Shown here in pieces: positions 25,128-34,817 of a stretch of DNA of 42,903 bases (the stretch's first letter is position 1; the number at the start of each line of letters is the position of its first letter). Below the pieces are notes generated by a model. The model did not search any database. It saw only the letters and a list, made by a program, of their open reading frames with translations, and had not been told where the DNA came from. The position numbers and the translations under genes were made by a program. The DNA is from a bacterium (GTDB taxonomy: Bacteria > Bacteroidota > Ignavibacteria > Kapaibacteriales > Kapaibacteriaceae), in NCBI GenBank assembly GCA_024711065.1, contig JANJTN010000076.1, positions 1 through 42,903 on the forward strand, read 5' to 3'.

Positions 25128-25491
25128 GGGGATGTACCGGCTTCGACGGGGCGAGATGAGCACGAAGATGCGTGTCGAGCTACGCTGGTGGAGCTCGTTA
25201 ATACAACCGGCGAACAACAACTGGCGATAACTTCGCTTATCGCATGGCTGCCTAACTTAGGTAGTATGCGCATCGACCCTGGGAGCGTCCGTCGTCCCAG
25301 ACGTTGGTGACACTTTAGATGGACTGGCGGGAAGCTGCGTCTCAGGGCGTACCGCGAGAAACACTGAGACTGGCTATGCCGGACCTGTCGTTCGGTGCCC
25401 GGCATAGCAAGAACCTGTAGAACGAAGACACACGTGGTACGCTTCGGTTGATCCGCTTCGGACCCGGGTTCGACTCCCGGCATCTCCACCA
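25128..25491 (+). ncRNA. ssrA: tmRNA (transfer-messenger RNA)
   Basis: One-piece tmRNA of 364 nt for ribosome rescue. The 5' end GGGGATG pairs with CATCTCC at the 3' end, which continues ACCA with an encoded CCA. The T arm GGGTTCGACTCCC is present near the 3' end. The reading frame ending at TAA 25253-25255 is ...GDNFAYRMAA; the resume codon is likely GGC at 25223, giving a 10-residue tag. This resembles the Chlorobium tag ending YAMAA. It lies 75 bp after ispH and 8 bp before the stop of the convergent phosphatase gene. Confidence 0.95.
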
Positions 25492-25499
25492 CAGTTCCG

Positions 25500-27587
25500 T
25501 TACCGGAACTTGACCGCCAACAGGGTGACGTCGTCATTGTACACACCGTCACCCTTCCACTGCTCAGCCAGCTCTACCAAGGCATCAATGATCTCGGTGG
25601 TGGTGCCGCCGGCAGCTGTACGCAAGGTGTCTTCGATCGGGGCGATCCCCAGGGATCGCAGAGCCGTGTCGAACAGTTCCGGCAATCCGTCGGTGAACAA
25701 CAGGAGGACATCGCCCGGAGCGGCGTCGAACTCGAGCGTGCGGGCTTCACTCACGCGGGGTGCGCCCAAGGGAAGCCCCTTGACCAGATGATGCACCACG
25801 GCGCCGTCCGAAGCCCGATACTGCAACAGCGGGGGAATACCGGCTGACGTCCATGAACAGCGCGATCCGTCGATCGTCAGCAGCGCCATACACATGTACA
25901 ACCCACGCAGATTCAACCGCCGGATCCCGTCCGACGTCAGCGTCAGGATCTCGTCGTGCCGCTGCGATATGGCATGCGTCTGAAAATGACTCTTCGCCGT
26001 GGCCACCATCACGCCGGCCTTCATGCCGTGGCCGGTGGCATCGCCAATGGCGAACGTGATCTGCTCCGGTCCGTGGATATAGTAGTCCACGTAATCACCA
26101 CCCACTTCGGTGGCGGTGTTCATGGCGATCGACGTCTGCAGATGCTGCGTTGAAGGCATCGAGGTCGGCAGCATGGAGAACTGCAGCTTGCGCGCTTCTT
26201 CCAGTTCCAGCGTCTTGCGCTGATGGTCCGCTTCCAGCTGTTGGTGACGCAACTCCTCTTCGGCGGCTCGGCGCTCTTGCATCACTTTCTCTTCCGTCAG
26301 CTCCTCCACTCGCGTTAGCTGCTCTCTCAATCGCCGATTGATGCCCGAAATACGAACCGCCAGGAAGATGGACATGCTGGCCGGCATGCCCAGGACACCG
26401 CTGACAAAGATCACCCTCCACACCGTCTCCGACAGGGGGATCACCTGTAGATAGAAGGCTGCGAACCAGGACATCAGGTAGATCGAGAACAAGAGGAGTC
26501 CGATCCCGATCAACCAGGCACCTTCCACCCTCCGGCGGATGGCTCGGACCGTGAGTCGACCGACGTCGATCGAGGCCATCAGAACGAACACACCCCACGC
26601 CGGCGTTCCGGCATCTTCGATCAGGAAGGGGGCTAGTAGGACGGCAGCGACGCCGGCTGCAGCGGCCAGGTACCGCGTTCGCGAGATGGTACCGTAGAGC
26701 AGCTGCGAGATCAGCAGAAGGGCCAGCCCGATGATACCGACGAACAACACCACATTGAGCTGATTCCAGATGGAGACCGCCGCAATGGAGGTGGTGGACA
26801 TGGGCATCTGCATGGACAGCAGGATCCCGGCCAGCGTGAGGGCGAATACGGAGTACAACAGGTTGTCTGCCGACCGGCGATCGAACAAGAAGAGCAGGGC
26901 ATGCAGCACTGCCAGCGTCAGGATGGTGCCCAGCGGCAACGTCATGGCCCAAGCCCACCGCTCGGCCAACGCCAGTCGATAACCATACAATTCACCAGCC
27001 GGCCCCACATAACAACTGAACGCGAGCGCCTTGCCGTCGTTCATCAGATAGCGATACGTCTGCGTGTTCGCTTCGATCAGCAACGTATGCTCGCTCTCCG
27101 AATCGGACCCGGCCAGATAGGGATGCAGCGGAATGATGCGCTTTCGGGTCACGATGCCCGACCCCGGCTCCATCGAACCGACCACGGCGATCTCCGTGCC
27201 GTCCAGGTATAGACGATACCCCCCGTAGGTCAGAATGCTGATCGATAACTCTTCTGCTGTCCGACCTGCCGAGAACCGACATCGAAACCATCCATGACCA
27301 TCCCAGTCCGGGACCTGGACAAGAATCTCGCGCGACATACGGCACAGGTGTTCCCGCAGCGGTGTCCAGTGTATGGGACCGTCTGCACCGGTTGAGTCCC
27401 ATTGGAGATCCTGTGTGGTGTATTCCAGATAGGGTCCAAGATCAGCCACGTTGCGGAACATCGCTTCGTCCAGCCGGATCACGGTAGCGTCGGCCCCGTT
27501 CTGATCAGCCATTGAGGGCGTATAACCCAATGGCCAACACACGAGCACAAGAAGTGCCATGAGCAACGGTTGCCGATATCGGATCAT
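25500..27587 (-). CDS. 7TM-DISM receptor with SpoIIE/PP2C phosphatase domain
   Basis: 695 aa from the ATG at 27587, which gives a signal peptide (MIRYRQPLLMALLVLVCWPL). The first ~180 residues form an extracytoplasmic beta-sandwich like 7TMR-DISMED2. Residues ~215-420 hold about seven TM helices, followed by a coiled coil (~425-475, RVEELTEEKVMQERRAAEEELRH style). The C-terminal ~210 residues are a SpoIIE-type phosphatase (TEVGGDYVDYYIHG, FAIGDATGHGMKAGVMVA, LLFTDGLPEL, NDDVTLLAVKF) with the metal-binding Asp residues. It should sense a ligand outside and dephosphorylate an anti-anti-sigma or similar target. It is preceded on the same strand by tRNA-Gly and a terminator. Confidence 0.9.
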   Translation of the reverse strand: MIRYRQPLLMALLVLVCWPLGYTPSMADQNGADATVIRLDEAMFRNVADLGPYLEYTTQDLQWDSTGADGPIHWTPLREHLCRMSREILVQVPDWDGHGWFRCRFSAGRTAEELSISILTYGGYRLYLDGTEIAVVGSMEPGSGIVTRKRIIPLHPYLAGSDSESEHTLLIEANTQTYRYLMNDGKALAFSCYVGPAGELYGYRLALAERWAWAMTLPLGTILTLAVLHALLFLFDRRSADNLLYSVFALTLAGILLSMQMPMSTTSIAAVSIWNQLNVVLFVGIIGLALLLISQLLYGTISRTRYLAAAAGVAAVLLAPFLIEDAGTPAWGVFVLMASIDVGRLTVRAIRRRVEGAWLIGIGLLLFSIYLMSWFAAFYLQVIPLSETVWRVIFVSGVLGMPASMSIFLAVRISGINRRLREQLTRVEELTEEKVMQERRAAEEELRHQQLEADHQRKTLELEEARKLQFSMLPTSMPSTQHLQTSIAMNTATEVGGDYVDYYIHGPEQITFAIGDATGHGMKAGVMVATAKSHFQTHAISQRHDEILTLTSDGIRRLNLRGLYMCMALLTIDGSRCSWTSAGIPPLLQYRASDGAVVHHLVKGLPLGAPRVSEARTLEFDAAPGDVLLLFTDGLPELFDTALRSLGIAPIEDTLRTAAGGTTTEIIDALVELAEQWKGDGVYNDDVTLLAVKFR

Positions 27588-27609
27588 TTCCGCCTCCACC
27601 AGAAAACAC

Positions 27610-27639
27610 AAAAAGCGCTCTTCCTCCTCGGAAGAACGC
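27610..27639 (-). terminator. Rho-independent terminator after tRNA-Gly
   Basis: On the minus strand, GCGTTCTTCC pairs with GGAAGAGCGC (one mismatch in 10) around a 5-nt loop, followed by TTTTT. It lies between the tRNA and the phosphatase start, so it ends the tRNA transcript. Confidence 0.85.
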
Positions 27640-27652
27640 CCGTTCTGTCCCG

Positions 27653-27725
<73 letters not shown>

Positions 27726-27730
27726 ATTTC

Positions 27731-27830
27731 TCACAGCCAACAGCTCACAGCCAACAGCTCACAGCCAACAGCTCACAGCTCACAGCTCACAGCTCACAGC
27801 CAACAGCAACAGCAACAGCAACAGCAACTG
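27731..27830. repeat. Heptamer minisatellite (TCACAGC/CAACAGC)
   Basis: Eleven 7-bp units, alternating TCACAGC and CAACAGC three times and then four TCACAGC, a CAACAGC, and a tail of AACAGC 6-mers. It fills most of the region between tRNA-Gly and the divergent GH57 gene, 5 bp upstream of the tRNA. Confidence 0.95.
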
Positions 27831-27865
27831 AAATATACGCCATGTCCTACAGTTGCGAAGAGCCG

Positions 27866-27872
27866 TAGTTTG
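27866..27872 (+). promoter_or_regulatory. Possible -7 element TAGTTTG before the GH57 gene
   Basis: CCGTAGTTTG is one base shorter than TAnnTTTG and lies 4 nt before the ATG at 27877. The CCGTA start is shared with the boxes before secG, pgeF, kgd and tmRNA. Confidence 0.4.
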
Positions 27873-27876
27873 CGAG

Positions 27877-29826
27877 ATGCAACCCCTTCGCCTGTGTTTT
27901 CTCTGGCATCAGCATCAACCGGATTATCGCACCGACACGGGCTTCTATCTGCCGTGGGTACGGATGCATGCCCTTAAGGATTATGCGGATCTGGTGGAGA
28001 TCATGGGGGACTATGATCTGCGGCACACGATCAACGTGGTGCCCTCGCTCATGGTCCAGCTCGACGCCTACCGGCAGGGTGCCACCGACCCAGTCCAACG
28101 ATTGTGTGCGCTAGCACCGGCTGCGATGACCGCTCAAGATCGTGTGGCACTGATGGCGTGGGTACGCACTCTGCAGCGCGAGACCATGGTTCGCCCCTTA
28201 CAGCGTCTTGATGAACTCTTTGACCATCCGGACCCGGCGTGGATGTCGGACCAGGAGGTGCTGGACGTCCAGGTCTTGCTGATGCTGGCCTGGACGGGAC
28301 CGATCGGTCGGCGACACCCAGTTGTAGCTGGCCTCCTGGAGCAGGGGAGTGGGTATACGATCACGCAACGGAACCACCTCATGGCCTGGCAGGAAGAACG
28401 ATTGGCAAGCGTGATCGACGTTCTGCGAACGTTCGCTGCTGAAACAGGGTCGGAGCTGAGCACCACGCCATTCCACCATCCGATCCTTCCGCTGTTGTGC
28501 ACTACAAACAGCGCTCTGGAGAGTCAGCCGGAACTCGAGGTCCCCGCGCCGCCCTTCCAGGAACCACACGATGCCGACTGGCACATCCGGGAGGCGATCG
28601 CCGACCATGCTCGACGTTTTCAGGCTGCTCCCAACGGCATGTGGCCGGCCGAGGGAAGTGTCAGCAACGAGGCCCTCGGACGATTCGCCGCCCGTGGAGT
28701 GCGATGGGTAGCCACCGATGAAGAGGTCCTTCGGCACACCCTGGGTGTTCAGAGCACGCCGACTGCACACCTACGGCCGTATACCGTACCCACCGATCAC
28801 GGTCCGATCGCGATCCTATTCCGCGACCACGGACTGAGCGATGCGATCGGGTTTGAGTATGCTTCGTGGGATCCGGAACACGCCGCCGAGAATTTCTGCA
28901 CGCGCCTGGAAGAGCGCCGTTCCGCGATCGTGCATACGTGGGGCGAGAGCGCGCTGGAGTGGGCCACGGTGTCGGTGATCCTGGATGGTGAGAATTGCTG
29001 GGAATTCTATCCCGGGAATGGCGAAGACTTTTTGCGAGCACTGTTTGGAAGGCTGCAAGGGGCTCCGGAGCGATACACAACGGTAACCTGCAGCCAAGCG
29101 ATCGATGTGGATCCGGCACACCTGCCGGAGCTGGACCACCTGGTGGCCGGCTCGTGGATCGGCGGAACCTTCGACATCTGGATCGGGTCTCCGGCAAAGA
29201 ATGCTGCGTGGTCGTTGCTTCGCGATCTGCGCGCACGGCTCAGAGCCGCCGAAGACCCTCCGCACCTCATGGAGCTCTGGTATCCGCTGGAAGCCAGCGA
29301 CTGGTTCTGGTGGTACGACGAGCGCCACCAAGCGCCGCACAAATCGGAATTCGATTCCGCTTTTCGGTCTCGATTGCGAACCGTATATACAGCCTTGGGG
29401 GAGGAACCCGGTATCGACCTGCAGAGATCTTTGTTGGAGTCCACCATGAACGTCGACCAGACCCTCGCCACGTTCCCGATCTCCTTCGGGAATAACACCA
29501 TGCACGATGCCGATGCGCTCGTGGAAAAGGTCACCGTTGAGACGGACGGCAATTGGCAGCGCATGACCTTTCACTTCCAGCGGGACTGTCGGGAAACCGA
29601 AGAAGTGATCGCCACGATCACCGATCGGCATGGGGCTGAACGGCGCGTTGGCATGATGTGCGATCAGGTGCTGTTCCAGTCCGGACGCCACGACGAAGGT
29701 TTTGAACGCCGCCGCCCTCGGCAGGTCTCGCTCTACCTGCATTCCACTACGCATTGGTTCGTTGGCGTCGAAGAACAGCGCGCCAGTGGTCGCACCGCGC
29801 GAGCGTCGGTAGAGATCCTGCTCTAA
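27877..29826 (+). CDS. Glycoside hydrolase family 57
   Basis: 649 aa. GH57 members are alpha-amylases, branching enzymes or 4-alpha-glucanotransferases. The N-terminus has the GH57 first motif HQHQPDYR. The nucleophile region is GMWPAEGSVS with E259, and the acid/base region is FRDHGLSDAIGF with D317. Later, ENCWEFYPGNGEDF and LEASDWFWWYDERH support the family, the latter resembling a C-terminal part of larger GH57 enzymes. The final ~150 residues form a beta-rich domain. No signal peptide, so probably cytosolic glycogen metabolism. It is convergent with the OmpA-like frame; the stops overlap by 3-4 nt. Confidence 0.9.
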   Translation: MQPLRLCFLWHQHQPDYRTDTGFYLPWVRMHALKDYADLVEIMGDYDLRHTINVVPSLMVQLDAYRQGATDPVQRLCALAPAAMTAQDRVALMAWVRTLQRETMVRPLQRLDELFDHPDPAWMSDQEVLDVQVLLMLAWTGPIGRRHPVVAGLLEQGSGYTITQRNHLMAWQEERLASVIDVLRTFAAETGSELSTTPFHHPILPLLCTTNSALESQPELEVPAPPFQEPHDADWHIREAIADHARRFQAAPNGMWPAEGSVSNEALGRFAARGVRWVATDEEVLRHTLGVQSTPTAHLRPYTVPTDHGPIAILFRDHGLSDAIGFEYASWDPEHAAENFCTRLEERRSAIVHTWGESALEWATVSVILDGENCWEFYPGNGEDFLRALFGRLQGAPERYTTVTCSQAIDVDPAHLPELDHLVAGSWIGGTFDIWIGSPAKNAAWSLLRDLRARLRAAEDPPHLMELWYPLEASDWFWWYDERHQAPHKSEFDSAFRSRLRTVYTALGEEPGIDLQRSLLESTMNVDQTLATFPISFGNNTMHDADALVEKVTVETDGNWQRMTFHFQRDCRETEEVIATITDRHGAERRVGMMCDQVLFQSGRHDEGFERRRPRQVSLYLHSTTHWFVGVEEQRASGRTARASVEILL

Positions 29827-31943
29827 GACTCCGTTCGGGCGTAGATGTCCACCCGTCGACTTTCGGGATGTTCGTCCACCGTAGTGTTCGGAACCTGCTC
29901 GACGCCGCGTCCGGCGCGGATGATCCGCTCGGGGGCGATGCCGATGCGACGTAGCTGTTCGGCCACGCGATCGGCCCGTTCACCGGAGAGAATGCGGTTC
30001 ACATTGTCCAGTCCAACGCGGTCGGCATAGCCATCCACAAAGAACCGCATGCGCTCGGCTTGATAGCGTGCGGCGAAGGCCAGGATGGTATCGATGGCCG
30101 CCGGCGACAGCTCGCTGCTGCCGCGTTCGAAGTACACGGATACCAACGGACGGTCCATGCGAAACAACCGCACCGTTGTGCGCAGTGGGACGGTTGAATC
30201 CAGATCGCGGACCGAGATCGTTTGCCGATGCGTCGTGTATCCGTCGGCATAGGTTTCCAGAACCTGACTGTGACCCTCAGGGATCACGATCACGGAGCGT
30301 CCCGTGGCCGTGTCTGATCGGATCAGTAGGTCGGCACAACCCGAGACATCGGCGGTGTCGTGCACGCTGATCCGGTAGGACGGGATCGGTTGATCGGTGA
30401 CGCCGTCAACAACATCGGCCTCATAGACGCACACCGGGTCCGGACGGAGTTCAAACGGCACGGTGACCTGATAGATACCTGGACGAGCCGCTTCGGCGTC
30501 CCAGGATGTCAGGAAGGCCTTGCTGCCATCCAGCGTAAGGCTTACAGAGGCTTCGTCTTCCTGCGTGTTCACGCACGGCCCCATCGAACGTGGCGGAGTC
30601 CAGCGTTGCCAATCGGCACCCGTGCGCTGGGTCCTGTACACATCCATCTTGCCGCGCCGGTCCTCGCGTCCGTTCGACACAAAGTACAACGTGCGCCCAT
30701 CGGCCGCCAGCCACGGCGAACCGTCGAGTCCGGCGGTATTCAGCGCTGATCCAAGAGAGACCGGTAACGACCAGCCTTGTCCGCAGGTCTGCATCACGTA
30801 CAGGTCCAGGTCTCCCAAGCCCCCTTCACGATCCAGCGCCAGGATCACGGTGCGGCCGTCCACCGACATCGTGCCGTAGTAGTTGGCACCGAGGTCGCCG
30901 ACCTCCAGCACCTCGATCGAGTCGAAGGGTATGGTTTGGGAAGCTCGATGCAGCAGAGCGAACCGTGGGGTCCGATCGATTCCATAGGATCCCACCACCA
31001 GGGCCGTGCAGAAGTCCGGTGTGAAGCCGAAGATCACATCCGGACGCGTCACCGAGGTGAAGGGGGCTTGGGTGGGTTCGCTCCAGGCAATGGCCGAGCG
31101 GGGTTCGGCGATCCACACATCATCCGGGTCCGTGATCCCGTCGGTATTCTGCGGATGCAGTTTGCGGTCCAGAAACAGCCGGCCATCCGGAGCCAGTACC
31201 GGCTGCGTGGTCGGCTGAAAGGCATTGATCGATTCGGGTAGCCGCGTCTTGTCGCAGGTCAGAATCGTTTGCGCAGTCACAGCCGCGCTGGTGGCCGCCA
31301 AGGTGATCAAGAGCAGGCCGAGCTGCAGATCGTCGATCACCGAGCGAACCACCGACCAGGCATATCCACGATACTGCAGGAAGCGCACCAGCTTGGTCCG
31401 ACGCTCATCCGGATCGGACTCGCGAAGGGTCCGCAGCTTTTTTTCGGCAACGCGTCGGGCGGCTTCCTGTACGGTAGCGTCGTCCATCACGGCTGTGATC
31501 TGTTCAGCGATCACATCGTCGGCCACGCCCTTGGCTTTGAGCTTCCGGCGCAGGTCGGCAGGGGAGAGTGGTTTGCGTTCGTTGGCGGCTGCGACGAAGC
31601 GTTCGACGTACGAACGATCGTCGACCACCCGCAGTTCGCGCAGCCATTCCAGGACCTCGATGGCCTCTTCCGGCGTGGCTTCGAGCTTGAGCAGGTGGTC
31701 GTGCATCTGCCGCTCGGTGCGGGGCTTGTACATGGCAAAGCGGTACGACTTCTGACGCAGCACCATTCGGCGGTCTTCCGTGCGCAGGCGGCCTTCCAAC
31801 TCGGGCGTCATCTCCAGCCCCTTGCGCAACCCCAGTGCCAGAGCCACATCGATCGGGCACGCGGCGAAGAACTCCTCGTCTACGAACACCGAACACCGGC
31901 CGCCGTTCTTGACGTTGCGTCGGATCGTGGTGATCACTCCCAT
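29823..31943 (-). CDS. RecX domain joined in frame to an OmpA-like outer-membrane protein
   Basis: One uninterrupted 706-aa frame. Residues 1-205 are RecX, the RecA inhibitor (three-helix repeats: SYRFAMYKPRTERQMHDHL; RSYVERFVAAANERKPLSP), placed 12 bp after recA as usual. The RecX part reaches its normal end (RGYAWSVVRSVIDDL). The frame then continues without a stop into LQLGLLLITLAATSAAVTAQ, which looks like a signal peptide core without its basic start. After it come PD40-like propeller repeats (LAADGRTLYFVSNGRED; LTLDGSKAFLTSW), a carboxypeptidase-like beta domain and an OmpA peptidoglycan-binding domain (YFERGSSELSP; DGYADRVGLDNVNRILSGERADRV). GTG codons at 31352 and 31340 could start the second part separately. 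Real fusion, nested gene or sequencing error cannot be told apart here. Confidence 0.85.
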   Translation of the reverse strand: MGVITTIRRNVKNGGRCSVFVDEEFFAACPIDVALALGLRKGLEMTPELEGRLRTEDRRMVLRQKSYRFAMYKPRTERQMHDHLLKLEATPEEAIEVLEWLRELRVVDDRSYVERFVAAANERKPLSPADLRRKLKAKGVADDVIAEQITAVMDDATVQEAARRVAEKKLRTLRESDPDERRTKLVRFLQYRGYAWSVVRSVIDDLQLGLLLITLAATSAAVTAQTILTCDKTRLPESINAFQPTTQPVLAPDGRLFLDRKLHPQNTDGITDPDDVWIAEPRSAIAWSEPTQAPFTSVTRPDVIFGFTPDFCTALVVGSYGIDRTPRFALLHRASQTIPFDSIEVLEVGDLGANYYGTMSVDGRTVILALDREGGLGDLDLYVMQTCGQGWSLPVSLGSALNTAGLDGSPWLAADGRTLYFVSNGREDRRGKMDVYRTQRTGADWQRWTPPRSMGPCVNTQEDEASVSLTLDGSKAFLTSWDAEAARPGIYQVTVPFELRPDPVCVYEADVVDGVTDQPIPSYRISVHDTADVSGCADLLIRSDTATGRSVIVIPEGHSQVLETYADGYTTHRQTISVRDLDSTVPLRTTVRLFRMDRPLVSVYFERGSSELSPAAIDTILAFAARYQAERMRFFVDGYADRVGLDNVNRILSGERADRVAEQLRRIGIAPERIIRAGRGVEQVPNTTVDEHPESRRVDIYARTES

Positions 31944-31955
31944 GGTCCAGGCGTG

Positions 31956-33011
<1,056 letters not shown>

Positions 33012-33179
33012 ATCGGATGTCTCGGTCGATGGAGGAACGAATGGATTGTACGCTTCCGTGCAGGAGGCTCGGGAAAACGTGACAGAGCCGTGAAGTTAGG
33101 GGTCTGGCCACGGGGCCGCGGCTCGAAGTTTTCAACAGGAAGCGCGTCACAATTGGACGCCCCTGCCGCACGGCGGACC

Positions 33180-34817
33180 ATGCCCTCTCGACCGATGCTT
33201 GCGCTGGCGATCCTGACCCTGGCAGGTACGGCGGTCCTCTACCTGTGGCCGCTGCCATGGGCAGTCCGGCCTGTGCTGTTGAGTCTGGCCGCTCTTACCC
33301 TGCTGGTGGGTCTGGCAGGGGGCTCGCCGGCAACGGTGCGGGCTGCCGGTGCCGTGCTGATCGCCCTCTTTGCGGCCGAGCGGATCCACTGGGTGCCGCC
33401 AACGCTCGAAGTGGCGGATCGTGGACGCGTGGAGGGGCGCGTGGTCGCTTCGCGCTCTACGGAACAGGGTGGGTGGGTGGCGGTGGACGGTGAACTGGAT
33501 CTGCGACGAACGGAGGCCTGCCGCTGCACCACCATTGTGCGCCTGCGTTCCGGGGCGCCCGCGCCGGAGGGTGCCTGGATCATCGCCTTCGGGACAGCTC
33601 GCCGACCCGGACTTGATGCCTCGGCCACCATCGAACAGTCCTGGATGCGTAGCCGGTCGGCGTTGTTTGTGCTGACCGCCGATCATGTGGCCACCGTCCG
33701 GCCTCCACCGCCGTGGATGCGGTATCGCACCGCGGCCCGCACCTGGGTGCGCGATCAGCTGACCATGGTCTGCACTGCCGCCACCGCTGCAACGATGTAT
33801 GCCATGATCACCGGTGAACGCAGCGTGGTAGACGAAGCCCTGCTAAGCGACGCAGCACATACCGGCACGGCCCATCTGCTGGCCGTGAGCGGCCTGCACG
33901 TTGGCGTGATCCTGACCGTGCTGGTGTCCCTGCTGGGAGGAACCCTGCACCGATGGTGGCACTTGCTGCTGCTGACGCTGGTGGTGGCGGGCTACATTAC
34001 GTTGACGGGTGGCGAGCCCCCTGCCATCCGCGCCGGAGTGATGGTCCTGTTGGCCGGACTCGCGCGCTTGCGCGAACAGATCGCCGATCCGCTGAACCTG
34101 CTAGGGACGGCTATGATGGTGGAGATGTTGGTCTGGCCCGAAGCGGTGATCCGTCCGTCGTTCCACCTCAGTATCGGCGTTACGGCCGCGCTGTTATGGC
34201 TGGCACGTCCATTCTCGGAGTGGCTGCTGCGGTTGTGGGTGCGTCCATCGGCCTGGCGGCGCTTGGTCTGTTCTGCGCTGGGTCTGCATCTGGCGGCCTT
34301 TGTGGGCTCGGCACTTCCCACGGCCATCCTTTTTGACACCGTGAGCGTTGGCGCACCCCTCGTCAACCTGATCGTGGTTCCCGTGATGTCCACTGCCTTC
34401 ATCGCGGCGATCGCCACGGTGGTAGCAACCAGTGTCTGGCAACCGTTGGGGTGGATCGTGGCCCTGCCACTTGAAGCCCTGCATGATGCCGGCGTTGCCG
34501 TGATCACCGTCTCGGCTGCCGCGATCCCGGCGGTCCCAACAACGCAGGTAGCCCTGGTAGCCACGGTGATCACAGCGGCACCATTCTGGTGGATGCGCGG
34601 CGAACGATGGCGGAGTGTGGCGATCCGCCTGCTGATCACGATCGCGCTGGTCTGGGGCACACTCGTGGTGACGTCTCGTTCAGCGGACGGCGTCGTGGTC
34701 GAGCGGGTTGGTCGGCAACTCCAGGTAAAGGTTCAGGCGAGAAGCATCCATCGGCAGTTCAGGATCGGACGGCGCAGTGGACGTCCGGTGGTGACCATTC
34801 CCAACAGCAGGCGCTGA
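33180..34817 (+). CDS. ComEC/Rec2-like DNA-uptake channel protein without beta-lactamase domain
   Basis: 545 aa from the ATG at 33180, chosen because the first TM segment (MLALAILTLAGTAVLYLWPL) follows directly. The N-terminal DUF4131-like region is about residues 20-170. The competence domain has the hallmark HLLAVSGLHVGVIL and GGEPPAIRAGVMVLLAGLARL, then about eight further TM helices. It ends after TM helices and a short basic tail, lacking the C-terminal metallo-beta-lactamase domain of B. subtilis ComEC. ComEC imports single-stranded DNA during transformation. It is divergent from recA over 168 bp that holds nothing else recognisable. Confidence 0.88.
   Translation: MPSRPMLALAILTLAGTAVLYLWPLPWAVRPVLLSLAALTLLVGLAGGSPATVRAAGAVLIALFAAERIHWVPPTLEVADRGRVEGRVVASRSTEQGGWVAVDGELDLRRTEACRCTTIVRLRSGAPAPEGAWIIAFGTARRPGLDASATIEQSWMRSRSALFVLTADHVATVRPPPPWMRYRTAARTWVRDQLTMVCTAATAATMYAMITGERSVVDEALLSDAAHTGTAHLLAVSGLHVGVILTVLVSLLGGTLHRWWHLLLLTLVVAGYITLTGGEPPAIRAGVMVLLAGLARLREQIADPLNLLGTAMMVEMLVWPEAVIRPSFHLSIGVTAALLWLARPFSEWLLRLWVRPSAWRRLVCSALGLHLAAFVGSALPTAILFDTVSVGAPLVNLIVVPVMSTAFIAAIATVVATSVWQPLGWIVALPLEALHDAGVAVITVSAAAIPAVPTTQVALVATVITAAPFWWMRGERWRSVAIRLLITIALVWGTLVVTSRSADGVVVERVGRQLQVKVQARSIHRQFRIGRRSGRPVVTIPNSRR

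Follow-up and report, generated by a model that had tools for sequence, protein, structure and literature searches.

RecX regulates the DNA-repair protein RecA, whose filaments it binds and restrains inside the cell, and is encoded next to recA. ToxR and CadC are one-component transcription regulators that work uncut as bitopic proteins. The FbcH polyprotein, described in 1989, reportedly comes from one gene in which a signal-peptide-type segment separates a front protein from an exported one. In FbcH the front part, an integral membrane protein, belongs to the same complex. In B. subtilis, a C-terminal RecX-YFP fusion is fully functional (PMC3527212), so an addition at the C-terminus need not disable RecX.

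The locus described here lies on contig JANJTN010000076.1 of assembly GCA_024711065.1, from a member of the Kapaibacteriaceae (Kapaibacteriales, Ignavibacteria, Bacteroidota), whose members are uncultured; the whole stretch analysed, 42,903 nucleotides, is called the window. The initial annotation reported that a complete RecX domain, a signal-like helix and an OmpA protein share one 706-aa frame without a stop. Translation of 29823-31943 (minus strand) gave an ATG start, 706 residues and zero internal stops, and together with Pfam and the relatives it confirmed that report; the positions it gave for the junction (residue about 207, base about 31325) and for the two GTGs, 31352 and 31340, hold as well. 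The features of the locus are as follows.

33090-34817, plus strand: comEC-like competence gene, divergent from recA, a neighbour kept in most family genomes with enough flank
31956-33011, minus strand: recA (Pfam), directly upstream of the fusion and ending 12 bp before it
29823-31943, minus strand: recX::PD40-OmpA fused gene, a single 706-aa frame with the same architecture in 15 family genomes
31326-31943, minus strand: RecX part, residues 1-206, with HTH1-HTH3 complete (Pfam), RecX 3d5l as best Foldseek match, and the sole RecX_HTH3 match in the genome
31350-31352, minus strand: in-frame GTG (V198), candidate internal start, judged unused from the start-codon checks
31338-31340, minus strand: in-frame GTG (V202), candidate internal start, judged unused from the same checks
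31272-31322, minus strand: hydrophobic segment LGLLLITLAATSAAVTA, residues 208-224, the former signal-peptide core of the second protein, aligning with the signal peptides of unfused relatives
31271-31272, minus strand: putative cleavage site for signal peptidase I, VTA↓Q, following residue 224 (-3/-1 rule; small residue then Q in 14 of 17 fusions)
29826-31271, minus strand: predicted mature PD40-OmpA envelope protein, residues 225-706 (Pfam, beta-rich model, Foldseek)
30633-30752, minus strand: PD40 beta-propeller repeat (Pfam)
29880-30134, minus strand: OmpA C-terminal domain of the peptidoglycan-binding type (Pfam; Foldseek matches to PAL/OmpA/PorE C-terminal domains)
27853-29826, plus strand: GH57 glycoside hydrolase gene (Pfam), a conserved neighbour, convergent with the fusion and overlapping it by 4 bp

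All domain matches in the fusion were above the Pfam gathering scores: RecX_HTH1 at residues 63-101, HTH2 at 108-147, HTH3 at 159-203, PD40 at 398-437 and OmpA at 604-688. The OmpA domain (PF00691) scored 43.6 bits against a cut-off of 27.2, and D641, N649 and R656, at positions of the peptidoglycan-binding type, are invariant across the family alignment. In the AlphaFold model (pLDDT 82.5, pTM 0.62), the RecX and envelope parts are well formed and are linked by a low-confidence stretch at 210-228, and the last RecX helix is modelled as running on into the hydrophobic segment (H196-216). The best Foldseek matches of the front half were RecX crystal structures, and those of the end were PAL/OmpA/PorE C-terminal domains. 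No break in base composition was found at the recX/OmpA junction of the window gene.

The front half is like RecX (PF21982/PF02631/PF21981) in its three modules, its position directly after recA and its single copy; unlike in known RecX proteins, an export segment and an envelope protein continue in its frame. The second half, with a beta-propeller repeat and an OmpA C-terminal domain, resembles the PD40-OmpA envelope proteins (the CHU_0125 family, and PorE of the type IX secretion system), with scores far below the curated NCBIfam cut-offs for CHU_0125 and PorE (67.1 of 620 and 60 of 600 bits). While the unfused PD40-OmpA orthologues adjoin recX in relatives, the envelope part of the fusion has no start of its own. 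With ToxR and CadC the fusion shares a cytosolic nucleic-acid-related domain, one hydrophobic segment and a periplasmic domain, but its segment looks cleavable. In contrast to FbcH, its front part is a cytosolic DNA-repair regulator and its cleavage is predicted only. Among the papers listed by a literature search on RecX with OmpA, none described a RecX-OmpA fusion. What is new is thus the RecX architecture, conserved and apparently repeated; the parts belong to known families, and the processing logic is reportedly preceded by FbcH.

The order comEC - recA - recX - (OmpA) - GH57 is common to most of the family, and recX directly follows recA in relatives as it does in the window. The comEC-like gene beside recA and the fusion may link the fusion to DNA uptake. 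Elsewhere in the window, the mechanically called ORF at 25500-27740 (minus strand) begins within the tRNA-Gly gene at 27652-27725, which puts its true start further downstream; it adjoins a tmRNA gene (25128-25491, plus strand) with the tag peptide GDNFAYRMAA.

The whole fusion protein was searched against 40 related genomes, and the family search covered 23 genomes. The full fusion was unbroken in 15 of the 23, counting the window genome, with stop-to-stop frames of 695-735 aa; the other 14 were 42-51% identical to the window protein in the search and 41-50% in the alignment. Two sister genomes, G004 and G005 (the latter at L092 and L021), have shortened fusions of 436-442 aa that retain RecX and the hydrophobic segment, with the PD40 propeller lost and the OmpA part degraded. 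Separate adjoining recX and PD40-OmpA genes were found in two genomes of one genus (G008 and G013), and recX alone in one (G010), where the gene stops at the junction, directly before GH57. The recX locus is cut by contig ends in two genomes (G018 and G022), and no RecX match was found in one (G011). Wherever RecX was found, the window genome included, it is single copy, with one RecX_HTH3 match per genome; the search with that profile returned no second stand-alone RecX in these genomes. For LexA, the family genomes gave only LexA-like matches below the curated cut-off.

The initial annotation had listed an assembly error among the possible sources of the fusion. The draft state of the window genome (216 contigs) would fit an error of assembly or sequencing, but 17 genomes are concordant, among them G004, a single-contig genome with its fusion at L091:2755-4062 (minus strand), and an error is thereby ruled out for practical purposes, its probability being negligible. 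The 706-aa fused frame is well beyond chance, unbroken in 15 family genomes and shortened in two more. The RecX-envelope fusion is neither an assembly artefact nor a one-genome accident, and is kept in 17 species.

Comparison of the recA-recX neighbours in relatives, which the initial annotation had put forward as a check, points to the origin of the fusion: next to the 17 family fusions, which support its suggestion that recX was fused with an envelope gene, the unfused relatives have adjoining and often ATGA-overlapping genes. Several genomes from the order's other families have these two genes adjoining but separate; recX and the second gene overlap by ATGA in four genomes of family f2, and in genomes of genus g11 (family f5) and related ones the second gene begins within the last part of recX, in a different frame. 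Because of these overlaps and internal starts, the ancestral state was probably a translationally coupled gene pair. In G008, recX ends ...LTSLPS followed by a stop, and a few bases later comes MRFPLATLCLSLVTLHTSLLCQ. In the unfused relatives the second gene opens with a signal peptide of the ordinary kind, located where the fusion has its hydrophobic segment. Judged by these alignments, the recX stop and the start and n-region of the second protein are gone in the fusion and the signal-peptide core is left in place, which fits the earlier view that start and basic residues had been lost from the second protein.

The RpoB+RecA tree unites the fused genomes in a single clade within unfused lineages (SH-aLRT 97.3, bootstrap 92), and the split genus (G008 and G013) and G010 fall outside it. 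A single fusion event in this family is favoured by this species tree; the RecX+tail gene tree is not strong enough to rule out that an earlier fusion was split again in that split genus, g4. RecX frames were also scanned in 123 genomes of the order and 296 genomes of the phylum. One further RecX frame with a downstream domain was found among the 123 order genomes, in G051 of family f2 (L130:2059-4143, minus strand, 695 aa), with the same layout of RecX, hydrophobic segment, PD40 and OmpA. In the RecX+tail tree G051 groups with unfused f2 genes (84.3/94 for the group), a placement that suggests that the fusion arose a second time, independently, in this other family. Among the RecX frames inspected, from the 123 order genomes and from the matches listed for the 296 phylum genomes, no further one had a downstream domain. 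Three more distant genomes of the phylum (G125, G247 and G316) also have long RecX frames; these were set aside, as their extra open frame is upstream and RecX forms the C-terminal end.

The W-to-C linker occurs in seven lengths, with at least nine length changes on the tree, all multiples of three; the chance of nine in-frame changes in an unconstrained linker is about (1/3)^9. The linker evolves faster than the RecX and envelope halves. For pairs with measurable dS, dN/dS was 0.10-0.31 in both halves. By this measure, both the RecX and the envelope halves are under purifying selection.

The hydrophobic core is present in 17 of 17 fusions, and its hydrophobicity is kept while its sequence turns over, a pattern of conservation that resembles that of signal peptides. 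Of all hydrophobic segments in the protein it is usually the strongest, and K/R residues come just ahead of it. The cores are short, and their summed 19-residue insertion energies are positive in 14 of 16, so that most would be marginal as transmembrane segments. By rule, each of the 17 fusions has at least one -3/-1 site, a motif that is easily found in hydrophobic sequence. A small residue followed by Q comes right after the core in 14 of the 17 (G001, G002 and G014 have no small↓Q form), and the same type of site occurs in several unfused relatives, such as GIA↓Q in G013 and LEA↓Q in L061. A search for signal peptidase I in the window genome returned a single partial match, in a short frame.

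The initial annotation had also considered an in-frame nested gene starting at GTG 31352 or 31340. The second protein would then be made, also or mainly, from an internal start near the end of recX as an ordinary secreted precursor, with the read-through fusion as a by-product. The window does have in-frame GTG codons at V198 and V202, and several relatives have them at one or both positions. However, the 17 fusions have no conserved start codon before the hydrophobic segment, and in three of them the closest upstream ATG, GTG or TTG lies 38 (G019), 39 (G015) and 57 (G002) codons from the core. In the window, starts at V198 and V202 would give acidic n-regions (net -1 and -2), and neither GTG has a Shine-Dalgarno match. 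Nor is synonymous conservation raised at the junction, where synonymous codon identity (0.32-0.36) is not above that in the rest of the gene. On these start-codon, Shine-Dalgarno and synonymous-site checks, the nested gene was rejected as a general solution, and we regard it as very unlikely. Even a nested gene would leave the fusion in place, as ribosomes translating recX meet no stop. Because recX is single copy and its frame has no stop, all RecX in these species must, on the genomic evidence, be translated as the front of the fusion in one polypeptide. As far as sequence can establish it, the whole is translated as one frame.

We consider it fairly probable that the product is a natural polyprotein: Sec would export it, and signal peptidase I would probably cut it at the small-x-small↓Q site into a membrane-tailed RecX and a peptidoglycan-binding protein of the periplasm. 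The RecX domain would fold in the cytosol and act as a very long n-region, Sec would insert the old signal segment, and signal peptidase I would cut after A224 at the conserved small-x-small↓Q site. The first product would be RecX with a hydrophobic C-tail of about 20 residues at the inner membrane, and the second a free periplasmic, peptidoglycan-binding PD40-OmpA protein. Such a polyprotein would couple the synthesis of a RecA regulator and an envelope protein at 1:1 and bring RecX to the membrane, at least at first. The frame has no stop and no conserved restart, and a signal-type core and a predicted cleavage motif lie between the two proteins; signal peptidase cleavage behind a 200-residue cytosolic domain would be unusual. 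Export of the PD40-OmpA part follows from homology, while the cleavage and the fate of RecX are our inference.

The main rival to the polyprotein is an uncut bitopic membrane protein similar to ToxR/CadC, in which RecX lies inside, one transmembrane helix spans the membrane and PD40-OmpA grips the peptidoglycan outside, so that RecX is permanently tied to the inner membrane and the wall. The continuous frame, the prominence of the hydrophobic segment with K/R before it, the modelled extension of the last RecX helix and the retention of the three invariant OmpA residues would all suit such a protein. The short and mostly marginal cores with their positive insertion energies, the small↓Q site just after most of them and the use of the same segment as a signal peptide in unfused relatives argue against it, and we hold it to be possible but rather doubtful. 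The initial annotation had proposed that the helix would anchor RecX to the membrane. Anchoring as such is possible; because the segment resembles a cleavable signal peptide, a lasting uncut anchor is less likely than processing. Another explanation deals with why the fusion exists and partly coincides with the polyprotein: a neutral accident of stop-codon loss that has no functional meaning and whose product is trimmed by signal peptidase or general proteases to leave RecX a normal soluble protein. Overlapping ancestral genes would ease such a fusion, and the RecX-only gene of G010, which stops at the junction, and the degraded envelope parts of G004 and G005 fit it as well. Retention of the fusion through deep divergence with linker indels in frame only, purifying selection on both halves and the apparent second origin in G051 make a neutral accident unlikely.

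If RecX is membrane-bound, either uncut or via the leftover signal segment, it could control RecA filaments at the inner membrane, for example on DNA entering through ComEC, whose gene is next door, with the OmpA part tying RecX to the cell wall; we offer this as a tentative idea. In E. coli, the inner membrane is where RecA storage structures and bundles are found and where UmuC, a subunit of the SOS polymerase, is initially retained (PMC6363387, PMC4552617); by analogy, a membrane RecX is plausible, though not thereby demonstrated. During competence, RecX of B. subtilis goes to the cell pole or the nucleoid, and it is needed for efficient transformation (PMC3527212).

These genomes thus hold a conserved case of a recombination regulator whose synthesis, by their sequences, always brings with it an export signal and an envelope protein. 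The fusion offers a clear example of how overlapping coupled genes may become a polyprotein, apparently twice. With RecX genetically tied to the membrane, how RecA is controlled in space would become open to direct test.
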